DNA of 33,305 nucleotides from Alphaproteobacteria bacterium (lineage in GTDB: Bacteria; Pseudomonadota; Alphaproteobacteria; Rickettsiales; UBA8987). The number at the start of each line of letters is the position of its first letter. The first letter of the stretch is position 1. Below are positions 2,350 through 17,456 of the stretch, piece by piece. The stretch spans positions 1-33,305 of the forward strand of contig JAUIFA010000001.1 in the NCBI GenBank assembly GCA_030429625.1, read 5' to 3'. The translations under genes and the position numbers were made by a program. Under the pieces are notes generated by a model. The model saw nothing but the letters and a program-made list of their open reading frames with translations. It made no database searches and was not told the origin of the DNA.

Positions 2350-3576
2350 ATGAGCATAAAAAAATACGATACGATACGAAAACTTGATGAGGAACTGGTT
2401 CTCATCATTGAGGACTTTCTTTTGCTTAGCCCGCTAAGTTGGTCAAAAGAAACCATGAACAGTTTTTTGAAGAATGCGGACAATAAAAATCCTAACTTGC
2501 CGGAGATTGAATATCCCAAAGTAGATTATACCCAAAAAATAAACCGGTTAACAACATACATAAAAAAATTAGGCAAAGACAACCATCCGGCCATTGAATT
2601 TTTGCGGGACACGGCAAAGAGTTATTACGACGCTTACAGAATCTTACAGGGTGTGGGCACAAAAGACGTCACAGAATTTTCAAAACATTTATATGGCAGC
2701 CCGAGGGATACATTGCCGGGATATGGGCGAAATAATGTTAAAGTTGCCCAATATTTTCTGCGAGTGGTGGAGGATTATCGCTTTACATTAAACGAAGAGC
2801 CGATGATCTATCCTGACGGTAGATTTAAAAAATTACTGCAAAAAAGGGTTGAGGAGAGCATAGACCCTTCCACTGACCCCATAAACATAACCGTTGATGA
2901 TACGATATCCGCTCGGGCGGCGGCCGGTTCAAACTATGTTAAAATTCGTAAAGGTGAGTCATTCTCTAAGAACGATCTGGAACAATTGTTCCATCATGAG
3001 GTAATGGTACACACCTTGACGTATGTAAACGGAAGGAAGCAACCTTTGTTAAAAACATTGGGATATAATGCGCCTCGAACCACCGCCACCCAAGAGGGGT
3101 TGGCCGTGTTTGCGGAATATATTACTCTTTCCATTGAACTGGTACGTCTGAAAAGAATCGCACAAAGGATTATTGCTATTGATATGGCAGAAAACGGAGC
3201 GGACTTTATTGATCTGTTCAAATTTTTTAAAGAACATGGGCAGAACAATGAAGAAAGTTATTATTCTTCTATGCGGATTTTCCGTGGCGGTAAGCCAGAA
3301 GGGGGAATTGTCTTTTATAAGGACAATGTGTATCTGCGTGGTTTGATTGAGGTGGGTTCATTTTTTAAGCATGCCATGCATCGGGGTTTTATTCATGACA
3401 TTGCGCTGATATTTTGTGGAAAATTGACCACCAAAGACGTAATGTTGCTCAAGCCGTTAGCAGAAGAAGGGAAAATTATTGACCCGGCCTATATGCCAGA
3501 CTGGGCAAAAAACAACAGTGGGCTGGCGGCACATCTTGCGATTAACGATCTAACCGAAAGATTTAAGATCATTTAA
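2350..3576 (+). CDS. QEGLA-motif (DUF1704, MATCAP-like) putative metallopeptidase
   Basis: The product (408 residues from the ATG at 2350) carries a zinc-protease type HExxxH (H216, E217, H221) followed by QEGLA (E249). This combination defines the DUF1704 family, named in bacteria after its QEGLA motif and related in fold to the eukaryotic tubulin tyrosine carboxypeptidase MATCAP. The natural substrate of the bacterial members is not known to me. No signal peptide or membrane segment is visible, so it is probably cytoplasmic. The frame is also open from a GTG at 2302; neither start has a clear ribosome binding site, and I prefer the ATG. It lies just after tRNA-Arg. Its last 27 bases overlap the 3' end of the convergent transporter gene. 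Confidence 0.8.
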   Translation: MSIKKYDTIRKLDEELVLIIEDFLLLSPLSWSKETMNSFLKNADNKNPNLPEIEYPKVDYTQKINRLTTYIKKLGKDNHPAIEFLRDTAKSYYDAYRILQGVGTKDVTEFSKHLYGSPRDTLPGYGRNNVKVAQYFLRVVEDYRFTLNEEPMIYPDGRFKKLLQKRVEESIDPSTDPINITVDDTISARAAAGSNYVKIRKGESFSKNDLEQLFHHEVMVHTLTYVNGRKQPLLKTLGYNAPRTTATQEGLAVFAEYITLSIELVRLKRIAQRIIAIDMAENGADFIDLFKFFKEHGQNNEESYYSSMRIFRGGKPEGGIVFYKDNVYLRGLIEVGSFFKHAMHRGFIHDIALIFCGKLTTKDVMLLKPLAEEGKIIDPAYMPDWAKNNSGLAAHLAINDLTERFKII

Positions 3577-5268
3577 GTTCATGTCGCTTATTTTTTCATA
3601 AAAATGCACACAGTCACGGTTACTTAAATCTTTGGTTTTTCTCTTTATTTTATCAGAAACATCCGAAATGTTGCAAATGATATACACCTGCCGATCTTTA
3701 TTGGCAATGGAACTTAACATGGATTTGATGGCCACAAGGCCAGTCATGTCAACAAACGGAACACCACTAATGTCAAGGATGAGGTGATCAATATGATCGT
3801 GGGTAAAATTATAGCGGTCAAAGGCTTTTTCGATCGTGCCAAAGAACAGAGGGCCAGTGATGCGGTACAGCATGGTGTTTTTGGGAAGGTTGTGTGAGGA
3901 GGTATTAAACCCATCAATGCTGCCTTCCACCTCAATATTTGTTAACTCGGTGATACGGTTGATTAACATAAAGGCGGCGCAGACCATGCCCACACCAACC
4001 CCGGCAACCATGTCAATAAACACGGTCAGTGTGAAACAGACTAACAGAACAATAACATCCCCGCGCGGGGCAATTTGCAGGGTGCGGATAAATTGCTTAT
4101 AGTGCGACATACGATAGGCGGTGTGGATCAGCAACGCAGAGAGTGCCGCCATAGGGACATAGCTTATGTAAGGCGCAAGTATTATGACGTAGATCATAAT
4201 CAGAACAGCATGGATGGAGGACGCAAAAGGCGAGGTGGCACCGTTATTAATGGCCGTTGCGGTACGGGCAATGGCTCCAGTGGCGGGGATGCCCGCTGCC
4301 AATGCGGAAAGGATATTGCCAAACCCAATAGCATTTAACTCTGCGTTAGGGTTGTGCTTTGTTCCGGTCATGCTATCGGCAACGGTGGCAGAAAGTAGCG
4401 ATTCAAGGGCGGCTAAGATGGCGATGGCCAGTGCCGGAAACAGTAATGTACGAAATTCCGCCATAGACGGAACGGTAAACAAACTACCATCAACAAAGGT
4501 TGGTAGCGATAAATAAGGCGGATAAGGCGGAATGCCTGACACACTAACGCCGTCGGAAGCAATGTAGCTAAATTTGCTGCCAATGGTCGCCACATCGTGT
4601 CCCATGCCATTGAACAGGATGCTTAATAATGTGCCAACAAAGATGGCGATAATGGCGCTAGGCAGAAAACTTACCACATGTTTTGCCGTAAACATTAAAA
4701 CCAGCGTTACCGCCCCAACAATGAGAGTAAACGGATTAAGCACAGGTAAATGATTGTAGAGAAGCTCTATTTTATGAATAAATTCACCGTCTAAATTTGC
4801 AATGTTAAGACCCAGAAAATCGTTAAGCGAAATGGTGGCCAGAACCACGGCAATGCCGGCCGTAAAACCAGTAGTCACAGGGTAAGGCACATAGTTAATT
4901 AAACGACCAATACGGGCAAACCCCATAAAAATAAGAATAATACCCGCCAACATTCCTGCCCAGATGATGCCGCGTAGTCCATGCTCGCTTACGATAGGCG
5001 CAAGGATAACAATAAATGCCGCTGTTGGCCCACTAACCTGCCAAATTGATCCCCCCAGCAAAGGTACCACAACGCCCGCGACAATGGCTGTGTACAGCCC
5101 ATGTTGTGGTGGTAGCCCCACCGCAATGGAAAGCGCCATGGACAGCGGCAATGCCACGAGAGAAATAACGAAAGCTGCCAACAAATCATGGCGAAATTTG
5201 GCAAGATTATAGCTGTCAAGGGTTTGACGCAGGGCGGTGGATAAAGGAAACGGCACTTTCTTTTTCAT
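3550..5268 (-). CDS. SulP/SLC26 family anion transporter with STAS domain
   Basis: The product is an inner-membrane anion carrier of the sulfate/bicarbonate permease family, about 572 residues long. Residues 1 to about 430 are a series of hydrophobic segments including the family hallmark around ALPLSMALSIAVGLPPQHGLYT near the N-terminus. A cytoplasmic STAS domain follows at about 460-560, with the segment LILDISGVPFVDMTG. The substrate (sulfate, bicarbonate or another anion) cannot be read from sequence; no carbonic anhydrase or sulfate assimilation gene is adjacent. The ATG at 5268 is preferred over an in-frame TTG at 5283; neither has a good ribosome binding site. The 3' end overlaps the convergent QEGLA gene. 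Confidence 0.92.
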   Translation of the reverse strand: MKKKVPFPLSTALRQTLDSYNLAKFRHDLLAAFVISLVALPLSMALSIAVGLPPQHGLYTAIVAGVVVPLLGGSIWQVSGPTAAFIVILAPIVSEHGLRGIIWAGMLAGIILIFMGFARIGRLINYVPYPVTTGFTAGIAVVLATISLNDFLGLNIANLDGEFIHKIELLYNHLPVLNPFTLIVGAVTLVLMFTAKHVVSFLPSAIIAIFVGTLLSILFNGMGHDVATIGSKFSYIASDGVSVSGIPPYPPYLSLPTFVDGSLFTVPSMAEFRTLLFPALAIAILAALESLLSATVADSMTGTKHNPNAELNAIGFGNILSALAAGIPATGAIARTATAINNGATSPFASSIHAVLIMIYVIILAPYISYVPMAALSALLIHTAYRMSHYKQFIRTLQIAPRGDVIVLLVCFTLTVFIDMVAGVGVGMVCAAFMLINRITELTNIEVEGSIDGFNTSSHNLPKNTMLYRITGPLFFGTIEKAFDRYNFTHDHIDHLILDISGVPFVDMTGLVAIKSMLSSIANKDRQVYIICNISDVSDKIKRKTKDLSNRDCVHFYEKISDMNLNDLKSFG

Positions 5269-5334
5269 ATGTTCAAAATACAATCATTATTACTAAAAAT
5301 CCATCAGCAAATATTTGGTGGTGTAATAACTACG

Positions 5335-5356
5335 TTTTCCAATCCAAATTGGAAAA
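5335..5356. repeat. 22-bp inverted repeat in the divergent intergenic region
   Basis: Perfect 9-base arms, TTTTCCAAT and ATTGGAAAA, flank the four bases CCAA. It lies between the SulP transporter and the sensor kinase gene, about 67 bases before the SulP start. No T-run follows on either strand, so it is more like an operator than a terminator. The function is unknown. Confidence 0.45.
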
Positions 5357-5413
5357 ACAAACAAGACAACCTGTGGGTTGCGGACATTGTGTAAACATTA
5401 TCACTATAAGTTG

Positions 5414-5441
5414 TTGCAATTGCTACTCATTAGTTTATTAT
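5414..5441 (+). promoter_or_regulatory. Possible promoter of the signalling operon
   Basis: TTGCAA (5414-5419) and TATTAT (5436-5441) with a 16-base spacer resemble sigma-70 hexamers, about 70 bases before the kinase start codon. This is a call by sequence likeness only. Confidence 0.35.
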
Positions 5442-5513
5442 ATGTGACAGGATCTACTTCTAGTTTATGCCGATATAAAGAATGTTTTGTTATGAAGCAG
5501 ATTGGGTTGATGT

Positions 5514-7604
5514 ATGTATAAAATTATGAAGCTTAATGATGGGTTCAATAGTAGATACTCAGCATTAGCGCTGGCGATTTTTTCGGTTCTTGTAATTGTG
5601 ATGGGTTTGTCGGTGATTGTTGGCTGGTATACGAACAATAGGCTACTGATACAAATCATGCCTGATTTTGTGCCGATGCAATATAATACCGCACTTTGTT
5701 TTGTGCTCAGTGGAATTGGGCTTATGTCGCAGGTTCTCAAATCCACAAAATCATCCCTTGTTGTGGGGCTTCTCCTGACAATAATTAGTACAATGACCCT
5801 TATAGAATACATGTTTTTAGTGAATTTTGGCATTGACCAGCTCTTTATGAAACATTACATAACCATTAAAACTTCACATGCTGGGAGAATGGCTCCTAAC
5901 ACGGCATTTTGTTTTGCCCTCACCGGTATATCACTTATTCTGCTATCGCTTAGAAATACAGGGATTGTAATAAGAACCTTCATCGAGATATTAGGGACAT
6001 TGGTGATTATCAATGCGGTAATAGCGGTTTTTGGATATGTTATTGGTTCGAGTATAGGATATAGCTGGGGTAACTTCTCCATGATGGCCGTGCACACATC
6101 AACGGGCTTTGTTATTGTCGGGCTTGGGATCATAATCTCCACCGACATTGGTCAAAAAACATTGGACGAATGTTATGCCCTGTGGCAGGCAATTCTACTA
6201 AGTGTGTTGGTGGCAATAGTTGTGATTTATAATTCCTTGGATATTTCCGTGCGGGTCATATACATTCCGTTGGTATTTTGCAGTTTGTTTTTCAGAATGC
6301 CTACCATTTCGTTCATTCTTGCCAGTGTGGCTTCTTTGCTAACAATATTGGGCTATTTTTCCTCTTTAACCTTGGGGGGGGAGAATGTTTTTGTTGTCAC
6401 GGACAGGGTTCTCTCACTCTTTGGTATATGGTTTGTTGCAATAATGATATTTTTTCATAAACGAACACAGCAGCAGCTTGAGGAAAGAAGTGGGAGGTTA
6501 AATACCATACTAAAAATGGCGCCGGATGGGATTTTATCGGTGGACATGAACGGGATCATACGGTCAGTAAACGAATCGATCTTACAAATATTTGGCTATA
6601 AGGAAAAACAGCTTATTGGGCAGAACATAGAATTCCTTATTCCTAAAAAATACCACCAGCAACATAAAAAAGATGTCAGTAAATATGCCAAAATGGGCAA
6701 GGCAAAAGTTATGGCATCGGGACGTGAGGTGTATGGAGTCGGCAGCGATGGTCAGCAAATCCCACTTGAAATTGGCTTAAGTCGAACCATTATGCCGGAT
6801 AAATCTTTTGAAGTCGTGGCCACGGTTCGTAATATTTCTGAGCGCAAAGAAGCGGAGCTGGAAAAAGAAAATCTTGTGCAGAAGCTTATTGAATCCAATG
6901 CTGAGCTCGAAAAATTTGCTTACGTGGCCTCACATGATTTGCAAGAGCCGCTGCGCATGGTAAGGAATTTTACCGGACTGCTTAAAAAGCGCTACGAAGA
7001 TCAGTTGGATGAGGATGGTAAAAAATACATAGACATCTCTTATTCTGCTGCCGCACGCATGCAGGACCTTGTGGAAGATCTGCTCGAATATGCGCGCATA
7101 GGCGAGGAATCTGAACAATATAAGGACATTAATAGCAATAAAATCTTAGAATATGTTTTGGCCAATCTTAAAGAGAATATTAGGGGGAGTCAGGCAAAAA
7201 TAACCTATAAGAATCTCCCATCATTTCATGGGAATCCAGTGCGCTTCTCGCGGGTTCTCCAGAACCTGATTGGCAATGGGTTGAAATACCAACCCAAAGA
7301 CAATGTCCCTGAAATCAATATTTCGGCGGAAGATAAAGGAGATAAGTGGCTGTTCCTAATAGAAGACAATGGGATTGGGATGAAGCCAGAATATTGTGAA
7401 CAGATATTTCAGCCCTTCAAAAGACTGCACGGCAAGGGTGAATATTCTGGCACAGGTATGGGGCTGTCCATCTGCAGAAAGATAATAGAAAATCTGGGCG
7501 GTAAGATCTGGGCAGAATCTGAGGAAGGCAAAGGAAGTAAGTTTTATCTTACCGTGCCAAAGGACGTAGAAATAATCACACGGAATCAAAGGGAGGTAGC
7601 ATGA
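5514..7604 (+). CDS. Membrane-bound PAS sensor histidine kinase
   Basis: The 696-residue product has an N-terminal region (about 15-315) of roughly ten hydrophobic segments, one PAS domain (about 333-445), a HisKA domain with phospho-acceptor H474 in ASHDLQEPLR, and an HATPase domain with N-box NLIGNGLKY (584-592), G1 box EDNGIGM (D618) and G2 box GTGMGLSI (about 646). The membrane part repeats a motif three times (54-71, 126-143, 191-208), each with an Asn/His-Thr pair followed by a hydrophobic helix. The PAS domain has H384 and R404 at the spacing of the haem His and Arg of FixL. The stop codon overlaps the start of the next gene (ATGA), so the receiver downstream is its likely partner. The kinase class resembles those paired with Rcp1-type receivers. 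Confidence 0.93.
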   Translation: MYKIMKLNDGFNSRYSALALAIFSVLVIVMGLSVIVGWYTNNRLLIQIMPDFVPMQYNTALCFVLSGIGLMSQVLKSTKSSLVVGLLLTIISTMTLIEYMFLVNFGIDQLFMKHYITIKTSHAGRMAPNTAFCFALTGISLILLSLRNTGIVIRTFIEILGTLVIINAVIAVFGYVIGSSIGYSWGNFSMMAVHTSTGFVIVGLGIIISTDIGQKTLDECYALWQAILLSVLVAIVVIYNSLDISVRVIYIPLVFCSLFFRMPTISFILASVASLLTILGYFSSLTLGGENVFVVTDRVLSLFGIWFVAIMIFFHKRTQQQLEERSGRLNTILKMAPDGILSVDMNGIIRSVNESILQIFGYKEKQLIGQNIEFLIPKKYHQQHKKDVSKYAKMGKAKVMASGREVYGVGSDGQQIPLEIGLSRTIMPDKSFEVVATVRNISERKEAELEKENLVQKLIESNAELEKFAYVASHDLQEPLRMVRNFTGLLKKRYEDQLDEDGKKYIDISYSAAARMQDLVEDLLEYARIGEESEQYKDINSNKILEYVLANLKENIRGSQAKITYKNLPSFHGNPVRFSRVLQNLIGNGLKYQPKDNVPEINISAEDKGDKWLFLIEDNGIGMKPEYCEQIFQPFKRLHGKGEYSGTGMGLSICRKIIENLGGKIWAESEEGKGSKFYLTVPKDVEIITRNQREVA

Positions 7605-8077
7605 AGAGTTTTAACGGAAAGCCAGTGGAAATATTACTGGTGGAGGACAATGAAGGGGATATTATTTTAACCAGAGAAGCATTTAAGGATAGCAAAATAG
7701 CCAACAACATTATGGTTGTTTCCGACGGTGAGGCGGCCATGTGTTTTCTTAGAAAAACCAATGGTTATGAGGATGCAATTACCCCAGATCTTATATTACT
7801 GGATATTAACATCCCCAAAAAAGATGGCAAGCAGGTGTTACAGGAAATAAAGGAAGATGCGCAATTGCGTGTTATTCCCACGGTTATTCTGACCAGCTCA
7901 AAGTCAGAGCAGGACATTGTTAAAAGCTATGGTTTGCATGCCAACAGCTATTTAATTAAGCCGGTTGATTTAGAAAAATTCTTTGAGATTGTTAGCGCGA
8001 TTGAGAATTTCTGGTACACGGTGGTGGTGTTGCCGGATGAGATTGAAGTTAAAAAATGGGCGGAGACAGATGGTTAA
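7601..8077 (+). CDS. Rcp1-like single-domain response regulator
   Basis: The 158-residue protein is a stand-alone receiver domain without an output domain. It has the acidic pocket E15/D16, phospho-acceptor D68 in LLDIN, the Thr/Ser switch in LTSSKS, and K120 in LIKP. The segments GDIILTREAF and the Pro-Lys-Lys-Asp-Gly loop are typical of the Rcp1 family, which works with phytochrome-like kinases. It overlaps the kinase upstream by four bases and the second kinase downstream by eight, so the three are likely made together. It may shuttle phosphate between the two kinases or act by protein contact; that is inference. Confidence 0.93.
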   Translation: MKSFNGKPVEILLVEDNEGDIILTREAFKDSKIANNIMVVSDGEAAMCFLRKTNGYEDAITPDLILLDINIPKKDGKQVLQEIKEDAQLRVIPTVILTSSKSEQDIVKSYGLHANSYLIKPVDLEKFFEIVSAIENFWYTVVVLPDEIEVKKWAETDG

Positions 8078-8798
8078 TAAAACACAGATTATTTCCAGAG
8101 AGGAATATTTAAATCTTCAGAAAGAAATGGAAGATTTTACCTATATTGTTTCTCATGATTTTAATGCGCCCCTGCGTCATGTGCGTGAGTTTACGAAGCT
8201 CCTCATGAAGAAAATAGAGGATAAAATTGGAGAAGATGAGAGAAAATATGTCAGAATTATTGATCAATCCATCCAAAATAGTGAGCAAATGCTTGAAGGG
8301 CTGTTACAGATTTCCCGCCTTAATACAAATGTAGAGCCATTGGTTGAGGTGGACTGTAATAAGATTGTCGATAATGTGATTGTATCGCTGTCTCGGCAAA
8401 TCAATAGGCACGACATTGAACTAAGTATATCGGATATGCCAACAATTCATTGCTATGAGGGACAGATGAACAACATGTTCCGTCAGCTTATGGACAATGC
8501 CATTAAATTCCGTAACAAGGATGTAAAACCCAAAATTGCCATAAAATCAAGTAAGATTCGGGAGGGGCAACAGTTCTGGATTGAGGATAATGGCATCGGT
8601 GTGGATGAGGGATATGAAGAAAAAATATTTCAGCTGTTTAAGAAAGTGTATTCAGGTGATGACAGTGAGGGCAATGGTGTTGGCCTCACCTTATGTAAGA
8701 AAATTGCGGAGAAACATGGCGGTGATATATGGTTTGAAAGACCCAAAAAAGGAGGTTCTGTTTTTACCTTTACCACAAACCTCAATGCGTATAGATAG
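8070..8798 (+). CDS. Soluble histidine kinase without sensor domain
   Basis: The 242-residue product consists almost only of a HisKA domain (H29 in VSHDFNAPLRHV) and an HATPase domain (N-box QLMDNAIKF, G1 EDNGIGV with D173, G2 GNGVGLTL). There is no membrane segment and no input domain ahead of the phospho-acceptor helix. The frame is open further upstream, but that part only mirrors the receiver gene in another frame. The ATG at 8070 overlaps the receiver stop by eight bases, which is typical of coupling. It could be controlled by the neighbouring receivers or by the membrane kinase. It resembles the kinase core of the 5514 gene. Confidence 0.9.
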   Translation: MVNKTQIISREEYLNLQKEMEDFTYIVSHDFNAPLRHVREFTKLLMKKIEDKIGEDERKYVRIIDQSIQNSEQMLEGLLQISRLNTNVEPLVEVDCNKIVDNVIVSLSRQINRHDIELSISDMPTIHCYEGQMNNMFRQLMDNAIKFRNKDVKPKIAIKSSKIREGQQFWIEDNGIGVDEGYEEKIFQLFKKVYSGDDSEGNGVGLTLCKKIAEKHGGDIWFERPKKGGSVFTFTTNLNAYR

Positions 8799-8888
8799 AT
8801 TTTTATCAACTAATGGTTGATTTTTATTATTTTTCTATATAGACTAAGCATTTGTAGGAAAGAGGTTTCTTTTTTAAGAGAGGTGTAT

Positions 8889-9830
8889 ATGTCTGGTGAT
8901 GCTGTTAGGGTTTTACACGTAGAAGATGATTCTGTTGACGCGTTATTAACCCAAGAAATTTTACACGACGAAGTGGGTATGAACCAATTTGATGTTGTTC
9001 ATGTTGATAGTTTAAAATCCGCTCTTCGTGAATTAGGAAGAAAAGGCTACGATGCGGTACTGCTGGATCTAAATCTGAAAGATATTTCCGGAATTGATAA
9101 CATACTGGCGATAAAAGAGGAAAATCCCGAGATACCGGTGGTGGTTCTTTCCGGGATGGACAGTTATAAATCAGCCATTGAGGCCATAGATAACGGTGCG
9201 CAGGAATATCTTGTCAAAGGGCACTGCGACGGGAAAGTAATTCGCCTTGCTTTGCATTCTTCGATAAGAAGAAAATCGGTGGAGAGGAGGCTCTTTAAGC
9301 AGGCAAATTATGACGATCTTACCGGTTTACCCAATCGACGCTTGTTTCAGGACTATCTTGAAAGAGCGATCACAAAGGCAAAACGCTGGGATGCACACGA
9401 GATTGTGATGTTTGTAGATCTGGATAATTTTAAAGACATAAACGATAATTTTGGTCACGATGTTGGTAATGCTGTTTTGAAAGAAGCAGCCATCCGCATG
9501 ACAAGCACGTTACGTTCCTCCGACATTGTGGCACGTTATGGTGGTGATGAGTTTGTTGTATTATTGAACGATCGGTCTGAGGATTTTCAATCTTCGGCCA
9601 GACAGGCTGCCACAAAATTGGTTTACGCATTTAATGCGCCGTTTGAATATGGCAGTAATGTCATACAATTTTCTGCCAGTATTGGTATCACAGCATATCC
9701 TCTGGCAGGGGACGATTATTCTTCGGTTATAAACAGTGCGGACAAGGCCATGTACAGAGCGAAGAAAAACGGTGGTGCTCAATTCCAGTTTGCGGATCTT
9801 CCTTCGGCAAAGATTTTTGCAATTAGTTAG
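8889..9830 (+). CDS. Response regulator diguanylate cyclase (REC-GGDEF)
   Basis: The 313-residue product joins a receiver domain (phospho-acceptor D60, with Lys-Gly rather than Lys-Pro after the last strand) to a GGDEF domain that makes cyclic di-GMP from two GTP. The catalytic GGDEF is at 218-222. An inhibitory RxxD site (R209 to D212) sits exactly five residues ahead, so product inhibition is expected. AGAGG lies just upstream of the ATG, which decides the start; the open frame before it has no such site. It follows the two kinases and the Rcp1-like receiver by 90 bases and is their likely output. Its 3' end overlaps the convergent RimK gene by eight bases. Confidence 0.95.
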
Positions 9831-11211
9831 CCAAAGCCGCAGATTTTCTTTTCTTTATGCCTTGTTCTATGCAGTCAATCATAAGGCTAGCCACGTCTTT
9901 TCCAGTAACATCTTCTATGCCTTCCAAGCCAGGAGAGGAGTTTATTTCCAGAACTTTGGGGCCGTCTTTAGAGCGAATGATGTCTACCCCCGCGACCTTC
10001 AGCCCCATCGCCTTAGCGGCATTGATAGCAATTTTGCGCTCCTGAGGAGTAATGCGTACCGATGTTGCCGTGCCACCGAGATGCAAATTGGCTCGGAAAT
10101 CTCCGGCTGCCGCCTCGCGCTGAATAGACCCAACCACTTTGCCGTTTATCACAAAACAGCGTATGTCTTTTCCTTGGGCTTCTTTGATAAATTCCTGTAC
10201 CAGAATATTGGCCTGTAGGCTTTTAAACGCATTGATAACACTTTCTGCGGCCTTATTGGTTTCTGCCAGAACGACACCTTTACCTTGTGTGCCTTCAAGC
10301 AATTTAATAACCAGCGGTGCGCCACCTACCATCTTGATAAGGTTCTTTGTATCCACAGGTGAATTTGCAAAGCCGGTCGTGGGCATCGGGATCGTGTGGT
10401 TGGAAAGCAATTGTAACGAACGCAATTTATCTCGTGAACGGGCAATGGAAACCGAATCGTTTAAACAATAGGCTCCGGTAGACTGAAATTGTCGGGTGAC
10501 CGCACAACCATAGAAAGTCATAGACGGTTTTATTCTTGGAATCACTGCATCGACATTTTCCAGTAATTCTCCCCCACGGTAGTAGACTTCAGGATCCAAC
10601 GCGCTGATATTCATATAACAGTGGCGAATATTGATAAAACGCATCTCATGGCCATGTTCTTCTCCGGCTTCAATGATTCGTTTGTTGGAATACAGATTAG
10701 GGTTGCTTGCCAAAAGAGCAATTTTTAGCCCGTCTTTTTTGCTGGGGGCTTCTTTATAATATTCCTGCGCGCTTGATTCAGCCATTGCGCCAAGACAAAA
10801 CGAAGAGTCTGGGTCAATAAGAACCCGTTCTTTCATAGCTTCCCGCCCAATGAGCATGCGGTATCCCATGGAGTCACGGTTGGTCAGAGTGACTTCAATC
10901 TCCCAGGCTTCATCTCCCATGATGATGGGAGTTTTGATCACGTGCCGTCTTTCTTTGTCGCCGCTAGAGCTTTTTACATCGCGTTGATCTACCACCAGTC
11001 CGCGGCAGCTTTGAACAGTACGACGGTTGTTTTGGATGGGGTGGATATCAAAATGGACATACTTTTTTCCCGCATCTTCAAACGGATGAATGTTAAAAGC
11101 ATGCAGAGAGGAGGTTTTGGCGCCGGAATCAATACGAGCCTTGATTGCGGGCAGCCCAAGTTCAGGCAATTCGCACCATTCTTCTTTCCCGATAACAATC
11201 TTTTTTGTCAT
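9823..11211 (-). CDS. Retropepsin-like (RimB-type) domain fused to RimK glutamate ligase
   Basis: The 462-residue product has two parts. Residues 1 to about 140 form a domain of the family often labelled ATP-dependent zinc protease (RimB-like), with the aspartic-protease-like DSGA at 28-31. Residues 163 to about 450 form an ATP-grasp ligase of the RimK family (EGTQGKGV at 306-313, the segment 365-380 around [24 protein letters not shown] at 422-431). RimK adds glutamates to the C-terminus of ribosomal protein S6 or joins related amino acids. A strong AGGAAG ribosome binding site fixes the ATG at 11211. It is the last gene of a tight operon with mscS and zntB, ten bases after zntB. Making and trimming a peptide tag in one chain is my inference. 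Confidence 0.88.
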
Positions 11212-11221
11212 AATCTTCCTG

Positions 11222-12193
11222 CTATAGCCACTTAAACTTCTTAAATAAAACAATCTGTAAAAAAACAATCACTGCCAAAATCATACAGAAAACCATAAAA
11301 GCATTGGAATTTTCTGCCCCAGGTATTCCGCCCACATTGATTCCCAACAACCCTGTTAAGAACCCAAGCGGAAGAAAGATTGCCGCAATGATTGACAGTA
11401 CATACATATTATTATTCAACCTGTCTGCTATTATATTCGCAATTTCATCTTTTACGATTTGTGCGCGCTCCCGTATCGCGTCAAGATCCTCAACATAGCG
11501 GGTGATATGGTTATAGCTTTCATGCAAATGGCGTTTATTAGACTCGTCGATCCAACTTAAATCGGCCATTAATAACTGACCGATGGAATCTTTTTGTGGT
11601 GCCATATAACGTCGAAAAATGATGGCCTGTTTGCGCACATCAATGATGGCTTCCCTCAAGGAGCTATTCACTCCTTCAAGAATCTTTTCTTCAATATCGT
11701 CGCTCATAGTGTCCAGTTCCGTTAATACGGGCTGCATACGTTCGGAAAGGCGGGAAATCAACATGGAAAGAAATTCGCCCGAATCCTTCGGGCCTTTGCC
11801 GTTGTTAAGCCTATCTTTAATGTCCTGTGCGGCCATCAGTTTGCGTCGCCTCAGGCTGATAATCCTATTTTTATCAATCCACATCCGGATGGAAACCATG
11901 TCTTCTGGTTCGGCATTTTCGTTTAGGTTGACCCCGCGCAGTATCAGCAATACGCCGTCCCCAATCTGTGTCATGCGTGGGCGTGTTTCATCCGCAATTA
12001 GAGCCTCAATAATAAACGGATCAAGATAGGTGGCCTCTTTTTCCAGCCATTTCTTCGTATCGGGGTGACAGGCATCCATATGTACCCATGCGAGTTTTTC
12101 ATCCTTTATCTGGTGTGAAATATCATCACCAGACAATTCAACGCCACCGCCTTTGCCATCAAAGCTATAAGAAATCAGGATATGTTCATTCAT
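11222..12193 (-). CDS. zntB: ZntB-type (CorA superfamily) zinc transporter
   Basis: The 323-residue product matches the length and plan of ZntB: a large soluble N-terminal domain followed by two C-terminal membrane helices (about 263-287 and 297-317). The loop motif after the first helix is Gly-Ile-Asn (284-286) instead of the Gly-Met-Asn of magnesium CorA. Many ZntB proteins vary here. The likely cargo is Zn2+, moved across the inner membrane by a pentamer. The start codon overlaps the mscS stop (ATGA), so translation is coupled. The znuA gene lies two genes upstream on the same strand, which suits a zinc role, but magnesium or other divalent ions cannot be excluded. Confidence 0.88.
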
Positions 12194-13155
12194 TTCAACG
12201 CCTCAGGATTTTTAATGTGCAGATCTCGTTGAGGGAAAGGAATCGTAATCTTATGCTCCTTAAATTTTTTCCATATGCAACGCATGACATCACTTTGTGG
12301 CTCATAACGACCTTCAGTGACATCGCCAACCCAGAAGAACAATAAGAAGTTCACGGAACTGTCACCAAATTCACGCAGGTAACATACCGGCATCGGCTCT
12401 TCCACACTGCGAGGGTGCTCTTTGGCGGCTTCTAATATAAGCTCACGGGCTTTTTCTATGTCAGAGTCATACGACACGCCAATGGTGATTTCAACACGCC
12501 CTCTTGTATTACTATAGGTCCAGTTGGTGACCCGATTGGTGATAAAGTCCTCATTGGGGATAATAATTTCTTTGCCTTCAAAGGTTTCCACCAGCGTGTA
12601 GCGTGCGCCGGTGTGGCGCACAAAGCCATAAGTGCCATCGTTAAGTTCGATAAGGTCATCGTTTTCAATGGATTTTTCGAACAGTAAAATAATTCCGCTG
12701 ATGAAATTGGAGGTGATCTTTTGTAAACCAAACCCAACACCAATACCCACCGCACCACTGAAAATCGCCAGAGTGGTTAAATCAATTCCCAAAATATCCA
12801 AAGCAACAAGTGCGGCAATGAAATAGATGCTAATTTGAATGGCTTTGATGATTAGCTCTTTGTTGTTTGCCCGCATGCCGTGGAGAGATTTAACGCGTTT
12901 CTCACTGAAATCTGAAAAAATGCTCGATATCCAAAACAGTGCCACAATGGTGATAACGGCCTTTAGCAATATGTAGAGAGAAAAATGCACGTCCCCGACA
13001 TTAAAAGACAGGGTTTCCGAGTCTAAAAATTCCTTGATTGGCTGTAGATTATCAAGAAAACCAAGCCAAAAAAAGGCAACAACAAGCAACAGCAGCAGTA
13101 TTTTTGACACCCAAGCATTCGGCTTTAACAGAATCTTCCATAGTTTATTGATCAT
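12190..13155 (-). CDS. MscS family mechanosensitive ion channel
   Basis: The 321-residue product has three hydrophobic segments (about 17-35, 58-80 and 105-125) followed by the Gly/Ala-rich pore helix region (VGIGVGFGLQKITSNF), a beta domain with the segment IIIPNEDFITNRVTNWT, and an alpha/beta C-terminal domain. This is the layout of small-conductance mechanosensitive channels, which open under membrane tension to release solutes on osmotic downshift. It is the first gene of the mscS-zntB-RimK fusion operon and begins 77 bases after the end of znuA on the same strand, so read-through from znuA is possible. I see no clear terminator in that gap. Confidence 0.93.
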   Translation of the reverse strand: MINKLWKILLKPNAWVSKILLLLLVVAFFWLGFLDNLQPIKEFLDSETLSFNVGDVHFSLYILLKAVITIVALFWISSIFSDFSEKRVKSLHGMRANNKELIIKAIQISIYFIAALVALDILGIDLTTLAIFSGAVGIGVGFGLQKITSNFISGIILLFEKSIENDDLIELNDGTYGFVRHTGARYTLVETFEGKEIIIPNEDFITNRVTNWTYSNTRGRVEITIGVSYDSDIEKARELILEAAKEHPRSVEEPMPVCYLREFGDSSVNFLLFFWVGDVTEGRYEPQSDVMRCIWKKFKEHKITIPFPQRDLHIKNPEALK

Positions 13156-13232: not shown

Positions 13233-14174
13233 TTACCCTTCCAAACAGGAGGACAAGCTGTCGGCCATCTTCTCCATGAGGTAAAAATACAATTCCGATC
13301 CCGGAGTCAGTTCTGTTCCCAGTGGATCCATCACACCGATAGTGACTTCATTGCCTTCGGCGATGGTGGAGATGAGTCGGTTGGAAAAGCCAGGTTCTTT
13401 AAAAACACAGGAGATTCTGGCTTGAGCGATTTTCTGTCTAATTTGTGCAATACGCTTTGGCGAAGCAGCCTCGTTTGGCTCAAGTGTGATAGATCCGGCT
13501 GCTTTGAGTCCATAATGATGTTCAAAATATTGGTAGGCATCATGGAACACAATAAATGGTTTATCTGTGATGGTACTGAGTTTGGTACGAAGTTTTTCAT
13601 CAAGTTGCTTGATTCGCTGTATTGTAAGTTGGGCATTTGCCTCGTAGAGCGGTTTTGATTGGGGGAATATTTTCCCTAGCTCAACCGCAGCAAATTCAAC
13701 GATTTTTATTGCATTCTCGGGGTTGAGCCACACATGCATATCGTCACCAACATGGTGCGCAGTGTCGTGATCTTCATCATGATGATGAGTATGATGGTCG
13801 TCCTCCTCCCAATTGCCTCCTGCGCGTTTTTCTAGAATCTCTAAATCTGCGTTACGTAAGATATTTTCTCTATGCAAATCTTGAGAAGAAGCCCGCATCG
13901 CACTGTTTAAAAAAGTTTCAAAATTATCACTGACATAAAAGATTACATCGGCTTCTGTAATTAATTTCATTTGAGAGGGTTTAAGCTGAAAATCATGAGG
14001 GGAGCTGTTGTCATCAATAATCAGCCCCACCGGTTTATCATCACCAACAACAGCAGAAATCAAAGAATGAATGGGACGGATGGTGGTAAGAATTTGTGGG
14101 GGCTGTTTCGCCAAGACCAACTCGGAGAAGCATAAAGACGTTAAGAACACTGCGATGGATAGAATAATTTTCAT
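13233..14174 (-). CDS. znuA: Zinc ABC transporter periplasmic binding protein ZnuA
   Basis: The 313-residue product has a signal peptide (1-22, ending in Ala), then a cluster A-1 metal-binding protein. Zinc ligands expected in ZnuA are visible as H60 (SSPHDF), H147 (MHVWLNP) and H211 (VFHDAYQYF). An acidic and histidine-rich loop lies at about 124-147, typical of zinc rather than manganese members. C256 and C310 could form the disulfide seen in the family. It delivers Zn2+ in the periplasm to the ZnuB/ZnuC transporter encoded divergently. Its start codon lies 36 bases from a perfect Zur palindrome, so repression by Zur at high zinc is expected. Confidence 0.96.
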   Translation of the reverse strand: MKIILSIAVFLTSLCFSELVLAKQPPQILTTIRPIHSLISAVVGDDKPVGLIIDDNSSPHDFQLKPSQMKLITEADVIFYVSDNFETFLNSAMRASSQDLHRENILRNADLEILEKRAGGNWEEDDHHTHHHDEDHDTAHHVGDDMHVWLNPENAIKIVEFAAVELGKIFPQSKPLYEANAQLTIQRIKQLDEKLRTKLSTITDKPFIVFHDAYQYFEHHYGLKAAGSITLEPNEAASPKRIAQIRQKIAQARISCVFKEPGFSNRLISTIAEGNEVTIGVMDPLGTELTPGSELYFYLMEKMADSLSSCLEG

Positions 14175-14209: not shown

Positions 14210-14226
14210 ATGTTATATTATAACAT
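14210..14226. promoter_or_regulatory. Zur operator between znuA and zur
   Basis: A perfect 17-bp palindrome (ATGTTATA, central T, TATAACAT) lies midway between the divergent znuA and zur starts, 36 and 38 bases from their ATGs. It matches the alphaproteobacterial Zur box as I know it. One site could control both directions. Confidence 0.85.
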
Positions 14227-14263: not shown

Positions 14264-14722
14264 ATGCTCCATTGTGCCAATCATACATCCTGTGTTGCGG
14301 AGGCATTACAAAATGCCGAATCTATTTGCAAAGAGCGTGGTGTGCGCTTCACTAACATACGGCGTAAAGTGCTACAAATGCTCTGGAAGCATCATTCTCC
14401 TGCCAAAGCCTACGATATTTTGGATACGTTGAGCAAAGAAGATGTGTCTGCCCGCCCGCCAACGGTTTATAGGGCATTGGACTTTCTTCAGGAAAACGGG
14501 TTGGTGCATAAAATCAATAGTTTAAATGCGTATGTTGGCTGTTCCCACCCACTCAAACATGACGATTGTTATTTCCTGATTTGTGAGAAATGCGGAGAAA
14601 TTGAAGAATGCTGCAACCATGTTTTGAATGATGCCATAGAGGCCACCGCAGATAAAAATAAATTCTGTCTCAAACATATCAATGTTGAAATTGAGGGAAC
14701 ATGTCAGGGTTGTCAGGCATAA
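14264..14722 (+). CDS. zur: Zinc uptake regulator Zur (Fur family)
   Basis: The 152-residue product is a Fur-family repressor. The winged-helix segment ARPPTVYRALDFLQENGL (about 63-80) is the usual Zur/Fur DNA-recognition region. Structural zinc site cysteines occur as two CxxC pairs, C107/C110 and C147/C150. It would bind the operator upstream in the zinc-loaded state and shut off znuA and its own operon. One base separates its stop codon from the znuC start, so zur, znuC and znuB form one transcript. Gene context separates Zur from Fur and Mur here. Confidence 0.95.
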   Translation: MLHCANHTSCVAEALQNAESICKERGVRFTNIRRKVLQMLWKHHSPAKAYDILDTLSKEDVSARPPTVYRALDFLQENGLVHKINSLNAYVGCSHPLKHDDCYFLICEKCGEIEECCNHVLNDAIEATADKNKFCLKHINVEIEGTCQGCQA

Positions 14723-14723
14723 T

Positions 14724-15473
14724 ATGAAACAATCTTCAGACGGGCAGATGTTAATAAAAGCGGATTCACTCAGTGTGATACGGCAAGGCAATGCGATCTT
14801 AAACGACATCTCGCTTGAAATTAAACAACATGATTTTATAACAATCATTGGGCCAAACGGGGCAGGAAAATCCATGTTGCTAAAATGCCTTCTGGGCTTT
14901 TTTCCGCCCGATAAGGGCAAAATCACCCACAAGCCAGATTTGAAAATGGGTTATGTTCCCCAGCGTATTTTTGCCGACCACACCATGCCCATTACGGTCA
15001 AAAGATTTCTCAAATTGGCCAAGAAAGTACGGGAGGCAGACATTTTAGAGATTGCCCAAGAGACCAACACAGAGCCACTTCTGGATAAGATGCTCCACAT
15101 ACTTTCCGGCGGCGAAATGCAGCGGGTTTTGCTGGCGCGCGCATTGCTGGGCGGTGCGGATATTTTGGTATTGGATGAGCCGGCGCAGAACCTTGATGTG
15201 TCTGGCCAACTGGTATTTTACAGATTGTTAGAGCGTATCTATGAAAAACGTAATCTGGCGATCTTAATGGTGTCCCATGATCTGCACATGGTCATGGCAT
15301 CGACAAAAAAAGTGGTCTGTTTGTATAAGCATATTTGCTGTTCTGGTGAGCCACATATGGTAACAAAAGACCCTGAATTTATCTCACTTTTTGGTAGCGA
15401 CATGGCGCAGATGATGGCGGTCTATCAGCACAGTCACAACCATATGCACGATGAGGCCTGCGACCATGATTGA
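14724..15473 (+). CDS. znuC: Zinc ABC transporter ATP-binding protein ZnuC
   Basis: The 249-residue product is the ATPase of the zinc importer. Walker A GPNGAGKS is at 43-50, the signature LSGGE at 127-131, Walker B with DEP at 147-153 and the switch histidine at 185. A short histidine-rich tail (about 237-249) may bind zinc, as in several ZnuC proteins. The ATG at 14724 follows the zur stop by one base. The frame is open into zur, but that part is only the regulator read in another frame. The 3' end overlaps znuB by eight bases. Confidence 0.96.
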   Translation: MKQSSDGQMLIKADSLSVIRQGNAILNDISLEIKQHDFITIIGPNGAGKSMLLKCLLGFFPPDKGKITHKPDLKMGYVPQRIFADHTMPITVKRFLKLAKKVREADILEIAQETNTEPLLDKMLHILSGGEMQRVLLARALLGGADILVLDEPAQNLDVSGQLVFYRLLERIYEKRNLAILMVSHDLHMVMASTKKVVCLYKHICCSGEPHMVTKDPEFISLFGSDMAQMMAVYQHSHNHMHDEACDHD

Positions 15474-16257
15474 TCCTTTTATCTTAAAAGCTGTGGCCGC
15501 TGGGGTTGGGGTGGCCGTCATTGCTGGAATTCTGGGCTGTTTTGTTATTTGGCGGCGCATGGCCTATTTTGGCGACTCTCTTGCCCATAGTGCTTTGCTT
15601 GGGGTGGCGCTTGGCCTTGCGCTAGGGATAAATACCAACCTTAGCACTATCATTATCTGTATTTTTTTTGCTGTGATTTTAGTCTGGCTACAGCAAAAAA
15701 AGATTCTGGCCACCGACACATTGCTTGGGATTATGGCACATTCTGCCCTCTCAATTGGTATGGTGACAATGAGCCTGCTGGGGCAGAGGATTGATTTACA
15801 TGCCTATTTATTTGGGGATATCTTGACGGTCACCACCACCGAATTATATTGGATTTATGGCGGCGGCGCGGTGGTCATCGCTCTCTTGGTCGCTAAGTGG
15901 TCGTCGCTTGTATTGATGACCATCAATGAAGATCTCGCCATGGCGGAGAAGATCCCGACCTTACGTAACCAACTGTTGTTTATGTTTCTAATGACAATCA
16001 TTGTGGCGGTATCCATTCGTATCATTGGGATTTTATTAATTGCCTCCATGTTGGTTATCCCTGCGGCAACGGCGAGAATGCTAGTGCGTTCGCCTGAGGC
16101 CATGGCTATAGGCGCAGCAATATTAGGAGTTATCGCTGTCATTTTAGGGATTTTCTGCTCCATGGCATTTGACACACCCTCCGGGCCTACTATTGTCACT
16201 GCCTGCGCAGTTTTATTTGTCATTGGGTTGCCAATAACGTATATGGTGAAGAAATAA
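15466..16257 (+). CDS. znuB: Zinc ABC transporter permease ZnuB
   Basis: The 263-residue product has seven to eight hydrophobic segments and the family-typical segment RRMAYFGDSLAHSALLGVAL near the N-terminus. It forms the membrane channel for Zn2+ with ZnuC and ZnuA. The ATG at 15466 overlaps the znuC stop (ATGATTGA). An earlier in-frame ATG at 15451 lies inside znuC and is less likely. The arsC gene begins 24 bases downstream with its own AGGAG, on the same strand. Confidence 0.95.
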   Translation: MIDPFILKAVAAGVGVAVIAGILGCFVIWRRMAYFGDSLAHSALLGVALGLALGINTNLSTIIICIFFAVILVWLQQKKILATDTLLGIMAHSALSIGMVTMSLLGQRIDLHAYLFGDILTVTTTELYWIYGGGAVVIALLVAKWSSLVLMTINEDLAMAEKIPTLRNQLLFMFLMTIIVAVSIRIIGILLIASMLVIPAATARMLVRSPEAMAIGAAILGVIAVILGIFCSMAFDTPSGPTIVTACAVLFVIGLPITYMVKK

Positions 16258-16281: not shown

Positions 16282-16767
16282 ATGCATAAGCCAGTTTCTG
16301 TTTTGTTTCTTTGTACGGGTAATTCCTGTCGATCCATTATGGCAGAGGCATTGCTTTCACATCATGGTGGAGAAAGTTTTATTGCTAACAGCGCTGGCAG
16401 TTTTCCTACAGGAGAAGTGCACTCAAAGAGCTTGCAAACCTTGGAGCAGAAAGGAGTCAACGGGGATGGCTATCGCAGTAAATCGTGGGATGAATTTATC
16501 GACAAAAAGATTGATATCGTTATTACGGTATGTGATTCTGCAGCAGGAGAGTCGTGCCCCATCTTTCCTGGTAAGCCTCTAAAAGCGCATTGGGGAGTGC
16601 CTGATCCGGCCAAATTTACCGGCAGTGAACAGGACATTGCGGCTGAGTTCCTAACAGTATGTAATGTTCTTGAAAGAAGGATTAAGGCTTTAACGGAGAT
16701 GGATATAGAAAATGCAGATGATAATTATGTGCAAAAAACCCTAAGGGAAATAAGCGAGATAATGTGA
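16282..16767 (+). CDS. arsC: Arsenate reductase, thioredoxin-coupled type
   Basis: The 161-residue product has the low-molecular-weight phosphatase loop CTGNSCRS at 11-18 and two further cysteines, C84 (TVCDSA) and C92 (GESCPIFPG). These match the three-cysteine relay of thioredoxin-coupled ArsC, and the loop GVPDPAKFTG holds the general-acid Asp. It reduces arsenate to arsenite in the cytoplasm. The stop codon overlaps the start of the aquaporin gene, a pairing known from arsenic operons in which the channel lets arsenite out. No arsR repressor or arsB/acr3 pump is in the window. It lies directly downstream of znuB on the same strand. Confidence 0.93.
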   Translation: MHKPVSVLFLCTGNSCRSIMAEALLSHHGGESFIANSAGSFPTGEVHSKSLQTLEQKGVNGDGYRSKSWDEFIDKKIDIVITVCDSAAGESCPIFPGKPLKAHWGVPDPAKFTGSEQDIAAEFLTVCNVLERRIKALTEMDIENADDNYVQKTLREISEIM

Positions 16768-17456
16768 TGGAGTGTTGTAAAGTAAGTCAAAAATATATCG
16801 CCGAATTTATCGGCACCTACATGCTCATATTTTTTGGTTGTGGCAGTATTATGATTGCGGAGAGATTCCCTGGTAGTGTTTCGCCCGAAGCCATAGCGTT
16901 AATCTTTGGTGTGGTGGTGGCTACGGTGATTTATACCATCGGTCATGTGTCCGGTGCCCATCTTAATCCGGCTGTGACACTGGCATTTGCGGTGATCCAA
17001 CATTTCCCCCCAAAGCAGATATTGTATTATTGGACAGCGCAATGCGGCGGATCCATCTTGGCCATGGCCACCCTATACATGCTGTTGCCCGACGGTAATC
17101 TCTATGGGGCAACCCTGCCCAACATTGGGCTGGCTCCGTCTTTTATGTGTGAGATAGTGTTGACGTTTTTCCTTATGTTTGTCATTACTGCCGTGGCCAC
17201 GGATACCAGAGCCGAGGGCATGATGGCGGGGGTGGCCATTGGATCGATTGTTGCCTTATGTTCCTTTGTCGGTGGGCCTTTAACGGGTTCATCAATGAAT
17301 CCAGCACGTTCGCTTGGCCCTGCCTTATTGGATGGGTCTTTAGGGGTATTTTGGATTTACCTATTTGCTCCATTTATTGGGGCAGTACTTGGAGCGCTTA
17401 CCTATCAGAAAATCCGTTGTGAAACAGTGCCAAGCAATGTAGACGGTTGTTGTTAA
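16767..17456 (+). CDS. NIP-like (AqpN/AqpS) aquaporin, probable arsenite channel
   Basis: The 229-residue product is a six-helix major intrinsic protein with both NPA loops (HLNPAVT and SMNPARS). The segments AEFIGTYMLIFFGCGSIMI and GGPLTGSSMNPARSLGPAL resemble bacterial AqpN/AqpS and plant NIP channels rather than AqpZ. In my manual alignment a small Ser sits where AqpZ has its selectivity-filter His, which suggests a wider pore. With arsC it would form a passive arsenite exit route, as described for the aqpS-arsC pair of Sinorhizobium meliloti. The ATG at 16767 overlaps the arsC stop by one base; a GTG one codon earlier is also possible. A cysteine-rich end (GCC) closes the protein. Confidence 0.9.
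   Translation: MECCKVSQKYIAEFIGTYMLIFFGCGSIMIAERFPGSVSPEAIALIFGVVVATVIYTIGHVSGAHLNPAVTLAFAVIQHFPPKQILYYWTAQCGGSILAMATLYMLLPDGNLYGATLPNIGLAPSFMCEIVLTFFLMFVITAVATDTRAEGMMAGVAIGSIVALCSFVGGPLTGSSMNPARSLGPALLDGSLGVFWIYLFAPFIGAVLGALTYQKIRCETVPSNVDGCC

Follow-up and report, generated by a model that had tools for sequence, protein, structure and literature searches.

We analyse a stretch of 33,305 nucleotides from an alphaproteobacterium of the order Rickettsiales (contig JAUIFA010000001.1, positions 1 to 33,305, hereafter the window) and focus on a tight row of three minus-strand genes at 9823-13155. As read from their open reading frames (ORFs), they encode a MscS-family mechanosensitive channel (mscS), a CorA/ZntB-family divalent-cation transporter (zntB) and a RimB-like retropepsin domain fused to a RimK glutamate ligase (rimBK). 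The mscS gene (12190-13155, minus strand, 321 residues) overlaps zntB (11222-12193, minus strand, 323 residues) by four bases, ATGA, at 12190-12193, and ten bases separate the zntB stop from the ATG of rimBK at 11211. We take this ATG as the start of rimBK (9823-11211, minus strand, 462 residues with no internal stop); a longer ORF with a TTG start is possible, and its extra part adds nothing known. The initial annotation described three genes locked together by this overlap and this gap, and we find the same arrangement, with 9823 and 13155 both being ORF limits.

RimBK carries three Pfam domains on one chain: PF05618 (RimB-like) at residues 6-138, Rimk_N at 162-256 and the RimK ATP-grasp domain at 260-448, so that the ligase spans 162-448. 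The protein scores 122.5 bits against PF05618, above the cut-off of 27, and 117.6 bits against the NCBIfam RimB model NF052261, below the cut-off of 200; against the RloA1, RloA2 and RloA3 models it scores 60.9, 59.1 and 69.2 bits, far below their cut-offs of 280, 250 and 210. Over residues 162-455 it reaches 399.3 bits against NF007764, the model for S6--L-glutamate ligase RimK (cut-off 331), and this part is 56-63% identical to the E. coli and Pseudomonas RimK structures. Asp_protease_2 (PF13650) was also considered as the protease family and has no match in this genome; PF05618 is the correct assignment. The AlphaFold2 model (mean pLDDT 88.7) opens with a part rich in strands, is weaker around residues 150-160 and continues as the RimK fold (TM 0.97 over 7qyr); the solved proteins that match the N-terminal part in sequence are 9g58, 9g59 and 2pma. 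To the eye, the start of the protein does not look like a signal peptide.

The fusion of a RimB-type domain with RimK, and the DSGA motif given for residues 28-31 by the initial annotation, are borne out exactly (D28-S29-G30-A31). That annotation would have called the link chance if the RimB-like part had lost its conserved pocket residues; in an alignment of 49 fused proteins D28, G30 and A31 are invariant, as are T33 and S34, and D28 is kept in 134 of the 137 rows of a wider RimB alignment. D410, E422 and N424, which we take to be the metal-binding residues of the ATP-grasp domain, are likewise invariant across the 49 fusions. Judged by these residues, the active sites of RimBK are intact, and the protein seems capable of building as well as cutting glutamate chains. 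In a FastTree phylogeny of 150 RimK domains, the label fused or split needs only two changes, and the fusion is therefore nearly single in origin in this sample.

ZntB falls well inside the CorA family PF01544 (E=1.7e-72), scores 282.3 bits against NCBIfam NF007092, just below the cut-off of 292, and 123.3 bits against the CorA model TIGR00383 (cut-off 200.75); its pore signature reads GIN in place of GMN. In MscS the beta domain PF00924 (66.1 bits) and the C-terminal domain PF21082 (64.5 bits), which together define membership, are both present and, like PF21088, score above cut-off. The product is above the cut-off of none of the six NCBIfam subfamilies listed, and is predicted to be a tension-gated channel of the MscS superfamily.

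Rows of this kind recur: RimK and RimB, often with an AstE-like hydrolase, stand with ZntB/CorA, MgtE or CNNM and often with MscS. Our class sample comprises 386 genomes, assigned to Alphaproteobacteria because two of them share their rimBK with named records (G288 with L056, Parvibaculaceae; G201 with L100, IMCC14465). Of the 386, 66 have a RimK-like match (65 kept; G199, a 31% match, was dropped) and 112 a ZntB/CorA-like match (95 kept; 17 with E above 1e-30 were dropped). Both genes occur in 35 genomes, and in seven of these, our own included (G000, G135, G302, G219, G417, G057 and G378), they lie at most 6 kb apart, where uniform placement predicts 0.14. Excluding our own genome leaves six linked pairs, for which the uniform-position model gives P of about 6e-9. 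The zntB gene is found in 35 of the 65 rimK genomes vs 60 of the 321 without rimK (Fisher p=2e-8, uncorrected for ancestry). The linkage is replicated in a phylum sample of 329 genomes, in which 118, including 14 from the same class, have rimK once 11 rimK genomes already used are removed. Here 65 of the 118 also have zntB, and five pairs lie within 6 kb where 0.22 would be expected (P about 3e-6). Two of the five are in the class (G633, G707) and three in other classes (G700, G706, G632), which in this sample are, we guess, mostly Gammaproteobacteria.

Gene order, on whose conservation in some relative the initial annotation had also made the link depend, does recur. Among 80 named loci, three have zntB or corA together with mscS: L055, from a Kordiimonas metagenome-assembled genome (MAG), has mscS-zntB-rimBK, an exact order seen only there and in the window; L057, from an alphaproteobacterial MAG, has mscS-zntB-astE-rimBK behind a glutaredoxin-like gene; and L130, from a Desulfuromonadales MAG, has rimB-rimK-astE-corA-mscS. 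The L057 genes form one tight row, as do rimK-astE-rimB-mscS-corA at L339 and rimB-rimK-astE-mscS-zntB at L166. Because the same genes recur together elsewhere, the row is more than chance, and we regard a non-random link between RimB/RimK and divalent-cation transporters, often with a tension channel, as supported. A stricter claim, that mscS-zntB-rimBK travels as one block, is rejected because the nearest relatives of the three proteins differ: those of RimBK are in L055 and L056 (83%) and L057 (82%), those of ZntB in L057 (69%) and in G036 and G094 (68%), and that of MscS, among the matches listed, in G181 (71%). A RimBK 83% identical to ours also appears on a contig filed under Prochloron didemni (L058), which is probably an alphaproteobacterial contaminant of that MAG.

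The transporter beside the rim genes also changes identity from locus to locus. MgtE occurs with an MscS channel at L224, L225, L227, L340 and L353 (with CNNM too at L225, L227 and L353), without MscS at L104, and with CorA at L345. Within the class we find rimB-rimK-astE-mscS-mgtE_N/CBS-mgtE (G117) and CNNM-mscS-mgtE_N-mgtE divergent from rimB-rimK-astE (G385, G159); at L038 (G001, of the window's own family) a CNNM gene is convergent with rimBK. A ZnuA-family metal ABC transporter is divergent from rimBK at L060, and Mariniphaga sediminis SY21 (L104) has mgtE-rimB-rimK-astE. Other classes show rimK-astE-rimB-mscS-corA (G632), corA-mgtE-rimK-astE (G544), rimK-astE-rimB-mscS behind a divergent LysR-type gene and either mgtE (G706) or zntB (G700), and CNNM-mscS-mscS-mgtE, a LysR-type gene and rimK-astE-rimB (G570). 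The LysR-type gene, named by eye, lies between the transporter gene and a divergent rimK at 7742-8629 of L336, 7588-8445 of L340 and 7345-8181 of L353. We left uncounted a VIT1 match at L216 and P-type ATPases about 2.6-4.3 kb from rimK at L085, L090 and L220, the last being an E1-E2 ATPase match without the cation-ATPase C-terminal domain. A separate observation is a conserved ORF of about 115 residues upstream of rimK at L168 (8885-9229), L106, L169, L216, L219, L224, L225, L227 and L228; it is on the same strand as rimK in eight of these nine loci, and the L168 copy, the only one scanned, has no Pfam match. An extra set of 20 regions consisted of five picked for a nearby zntB, L348, which has zntB only, and 14 other rim loci, of which five have MscS or a divalent transporter and three a divalent transporter.

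We compare these loci with 40 control regions from the same genomes, obtained by shifting along the rimK contig by about half its length and limited to contigs above 100 kb. CorA, MgtE or CNNM is found at 9 of the 64 class rim loci vs 0 of 40 controls (p=0.01), and together with MscS at 6 of 64 vs 0 of 40 (p=0.05). On the RimK tree the linked state (assigned by hand to 22 rows) needs 15 changes, at least 12 of them forced by starred branches, where shuffled labels average 20.8; it has therefore arisen or been lost repeatedly and is partly inherited too. Rim genes and transporters are genuinely linked, but only at a minority of rim loci, and the effect owes more to the cation transporters than to MscS.

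The commonest neighbour of rim genes is a hydrolase of the AstE/AspA type (PF24827 in the three proteins scanned). By its model it adjoins rimK in 41 of 162 loci, and it is these 41 that we count, where clustering gave 45. It stands beside the rim genes at 34 of 59 split, 3 of 11 rimK-only and 4 of 60 fused loci, the 60 counting two genomes twice (L056/L170 from G288, Parvibaculaceae, and L100/L171 from G201, IMCC14465); the difference between split and fused has p=9e-10 in a tally that omits 18 enterobacterial and 14 Shewanella loci. H55, E58 and H140 (L057 numbering), presumably the zinc ligands, are conserved in 93% or more of 45 proteins, and the hydrolase may trim glutamate ends. Our own genome has no rim-type AstE, just a distant AstE/AspA-like protein beside what by eye is an apparent dapD.

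The RimB-RimK fusion is already published as RimBK, and the neighbourhood is the new part as far as the literature searched: we found there no description of rim genes beside MscS, CorA/ZntB or MgtE, and an earlier mention is possible. The passages used here of Little et al. 2025 (PMC11957791), who named RimBK, place rimBK in 12% of 2226 rim-bearing accessions and describe a hybrid from Desulfotalea psychrophila with the same N-terminal RimB-like retropepsin domain and RimK on one chain. This hybrid and its RimB part show protease activity with polyglutamylated RpsF; with the hybrid the authors observed no glutamylation of SBW25 RpsF and suggested some activity yet to be identified, and those passages describe no MscS, ZntB or AstE neighbourhood (PMC11957791). 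RimB is characterised there as an aspartic retropepsin that trims polyglutamate, polyglutamated RpsF included (PMC11957791), so the trimming of RimK tails, which the initial annotation put as something "thought" to happen, stands and its tentative wording does not. The same source reports that RimB stimulates polyglutamate synthesis by RimK, with glutamate depleted and osmolality shifted according to the authors (PMC11957791).

Three better-known arrangements of these enzymes differ from ours. The Rim system of Pseudomonas (rimK and rimB, with rimA in some species) uses the same two enzymes, but as separate proteins from split genes, and no channel or transporter is described in its contexts in the parts of PMC10092738 and PMC7343187 on which we draw. 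E. coli RimK, 56-58% identical to our protein over the ligase domain, stands alone in its genome according to the relevant part of PMC10092738, unlike the member of our row. RloABC of P. aeruginosa likewise pairs a RimB-related retropepsin with an ATP-grasp protein, but RloA is secreted and RloB, which has seven membrane helices, is a transglutaminase without activity, as given in a portion of PMC12239564. That portion also reports that RloA, a relative of RimB, is needed for hypoosmotic growth in salt-free medium (PMC12239564).

How might a glutamate ligase, a channel and a cation transporter work together? We tentatively favour a role, possible though somewhat short of probable, in which RimBK both synthesises and degrades polyglutamate, either as free chains or attached to some protein that is not S6, for osmotic and divalent-cation adjustment. 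RimBK would join L-glutamates into poly-alpha-glutamate, and its protease half would cut the chains again, whether free in the cytoplasm or on a non-S6 protein; turgor and the buffering of divalent cations would be adjusted through the changing numbers of free glutamate molecules and metal-binding carboxylates. When salinity falls, MscS would release solutes, and the transporter would bring Mg2+ or Zn2+ back. Of this, the linkage is supported, while we infer that RimBK makes the polymer, that the polymer is free and that its purpose is osmotic and ionic. Extending the proposal, the Rim enzymes of these neighbourhoods could be mainly a cytoplasmic polyglutamate buffer, with RimK polymerising and RimB and the AstE-like protein degrading, and not ribosome modifiers. 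We find this general form rather doubtful, and equally so its scope, in which the buffer would work with MscS and the Mg2+/Zn2+ transporters across Alphaproteobacteria, other classes of the same phylum, the Desulfuromonadales MAG and the one Mariniphaga genome.

Several observations weigh against the osmotic and divalent-cation role. Among published findings, the one that argues most strongly against an osmotic role for RimB is the unaltered growth of a P. aeruginosa ΔrimB mutant in hypoosmotic medium (part of PMC12239564). In our own data, no CorA, MgtE or CNNM gene lies in the examined stretch at 55 of the 64 class rim loci, and MscS taken by itself shows no enrichment (6 of 64 rim loci vs 2 of 40 controls, p=0.34). 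Eleven other RimBK genomes of the host's order have no mscS or zntB in the stretches examined, those of L032, L036 and L037 extending less than 2 kb on one side. Beside the fused RimBK of Shewanella fidelis ATCC BAA-318 (L073), a culturable marine carrier, neither mscS nor zntB is seen. None of the P-values given above corrects for common descent, and linked loci tend to group together on the RimK tree. The MgtE, CNNM and ATP-binding cassette (ABC) transporter links were noticed post hoc, with search models seeded from rim loci. Finally, mscS and zntB form a conserved pair in their own right, lying within 6 kb of each other in at least 17 of the 95 zntB-bearing genomes of the class, our own included, and overlapping by four bases in several genomes; many of these linked pairs have no rim genes, and the rim genes may therefore be occasional passengers.

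Among the alternatives, the one that survives best places the action at the ribosome: RimBK would add glutamates to a ribosomal protein, S6 or a different one, and trim them again, and would neighbour MscS and ZntB because changes in osmolarity, Mg2+ or Zn2+ call for a retuned translation. The ligase score and the identity to known RimK enzymes given above speak for it, as does the trimming of polyglutamated RpsF by RimB in the published work. S6 itself argues otherwise. Ligation of S6 by RimK requires an S6 with a C-terminal glutamate as acceptor, and our S6 ends in EETEA, its last residue being alanine, so that it lacks that acceptor. We read the S6 C-termini of 50 of the 51 S6-bearing genomes among 55 in the order (G008 omitted). 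In the 12 RimBK genomes, S6 ends in Glu in one, in Asp in one and in a non-acidic residue in ten; acidic ends occur in 5 of 21 genomes with any RimK vs 8 of 29 without (G049, with a 37% RimK-like match, being counted among the latter) and do not track RimK. S6 is a poor candidate substrate here, consistent with the published negative assay on SBW25 RpsF, and we consider the ribosomal explanation unlikely.

The initial annotation had proposed a peptide tag, with S6 and the channel as places to look for it. Our MscS ends in EALK and our ZntB in FKWL, neither in Glu, so the channel and transporter are not obvious glutamate acceptors either, and a tag on S6 or on the channel is not supported. With S6 a poor candidate and MscS and ZntB not obvious ones, free polyglutamate or some other protein is left. 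A search of our genome for polyglutamate proteins as RimB targets finds two EEEEE stretches, neither at a C-terminus: one in a protein of unnamed family and one in what by eye is a CBS/CorC-like protein. The latter lies on contig 6 of G000, at about 88.57 kb (L294).

A second alternative concerns metal economy and not osmotic adjustment: mscS, zntB and rimBK would be read through from a Zur-controlled znuA promoter. ZntB proteins are zinc transporters, and 77 bases upstream of mscS, on its strand, is znuA (13233-14174, minus strand; zinc ABC-transporter binding protein, PF01297 E=1.6e-65). Divergent from it are zur (14264-14722, plus strand), a FUR-family zinc repressor (PF01475; 126.3 bits against NCBIfam Zur, below the cut-off of 167), then znuC (14682-15473, plus strand), the transporter ATPase (285.1 bits against NCBIfam ZnuC, below the cut-off of 306), whose true start may be further inside the ORF, and a znuB-like ABC permease (15451-16257, plus strand), named by eye from its ORF and position. 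Between znuA and zur sits a perfect 17-base palindrome, ATGTTATATTATAACAT, at 14210-14226, unique in the genome at up to two mismatches and presumably of the Zur-box type. A simple scan of the minus strand in the gap between znuA and mscS finds nothing resembling a terminator or a promoter, and with the palindrome at the znuA/zur divergence the transcript may therefore begin there.

Zinc control of the row in our own genome is possible on this arrangement of sites and genes. Elsewhere, 3 of 181 other rim loci (L060, L064 and L066) have metal ABC genes close to rimBK, and none of 40 controls has such genes. L060 has, at 2893-6806 on the minus strand and divergent from rimBK, a metal ABC operon (ZnuA family, two permeases and an ATPase) with an iron-dependent-repressor-type regulator; L064 and L066 have ZnuB/ZnuC homologues 2-3 kb downstream of rimBK on the opposite strand. 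Matches to znuA, znuB, zur or, at 38% identity or more, znuC occur at 4 of the 181 rim loci, one of them a zur-like match of 68 residues, and at 0 of 40 controls, but in the stretch searched znuA, znuB and zur-like matches occur at none of the mscS- or zntB-linked loci elsewhere. The RimB fold, moreover, is that of an aspartic protease, and published RimB is insensitive to EDTA and phenanthroline (part of PMC11957791). As an explanation of the neighbourhood, a zinc regulon is quite improbable. Least probable is a mobile or chance cluster in which rim genes land now and then, and without functional meaning, beside the conserved mscS-zntB pair: rim-free pairs, the rarity of the exact order, the differing relatives of the three proteins and the lack of enrichment of MscS alone suit it, but overlapping or touching gene rows in distant lineages, the replication in a second sample and the swap to unrelated transporters do not.

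The rest of the surroundings is recorded for completeness, with families assigned by eye. At 5514-9830 on the plus strand lie genes for a PAS-type histidine kinase, a response regulator, a second histidine kinase and a response regulator-GGDEF protein, the last tail to tail with rimBK and overlapping it by eight bases (9823-9830). Behind znuCB, at 16282-17456 on the plus strand, are a low-molecular-weight phosphatase/arsenate-reductase-like gene and then an aquaporin-like gene.

For the family, the neighbours offer a concrete guess on the role of RimBK, which was published without a substrate. We take the orthologue group K05844 to be rimK and K03284 to be corA. In the part of PMC10219603 drawn on here, K05844, K03284 and K03282 (a mechanosensitive channel) are commoner in brackish than in marine genomes. 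The neighbourhood joins this strand to two others, the Rlo retropepsins in hypoosmotic growth and the RimB-stimulated synthesis of polyglutamate. Should the osmotic and divalent-cation role of RimBK prove true, cells would be coping with osmotic and metal stress by a little-studied route, a reversible polymer of a main cell anion.

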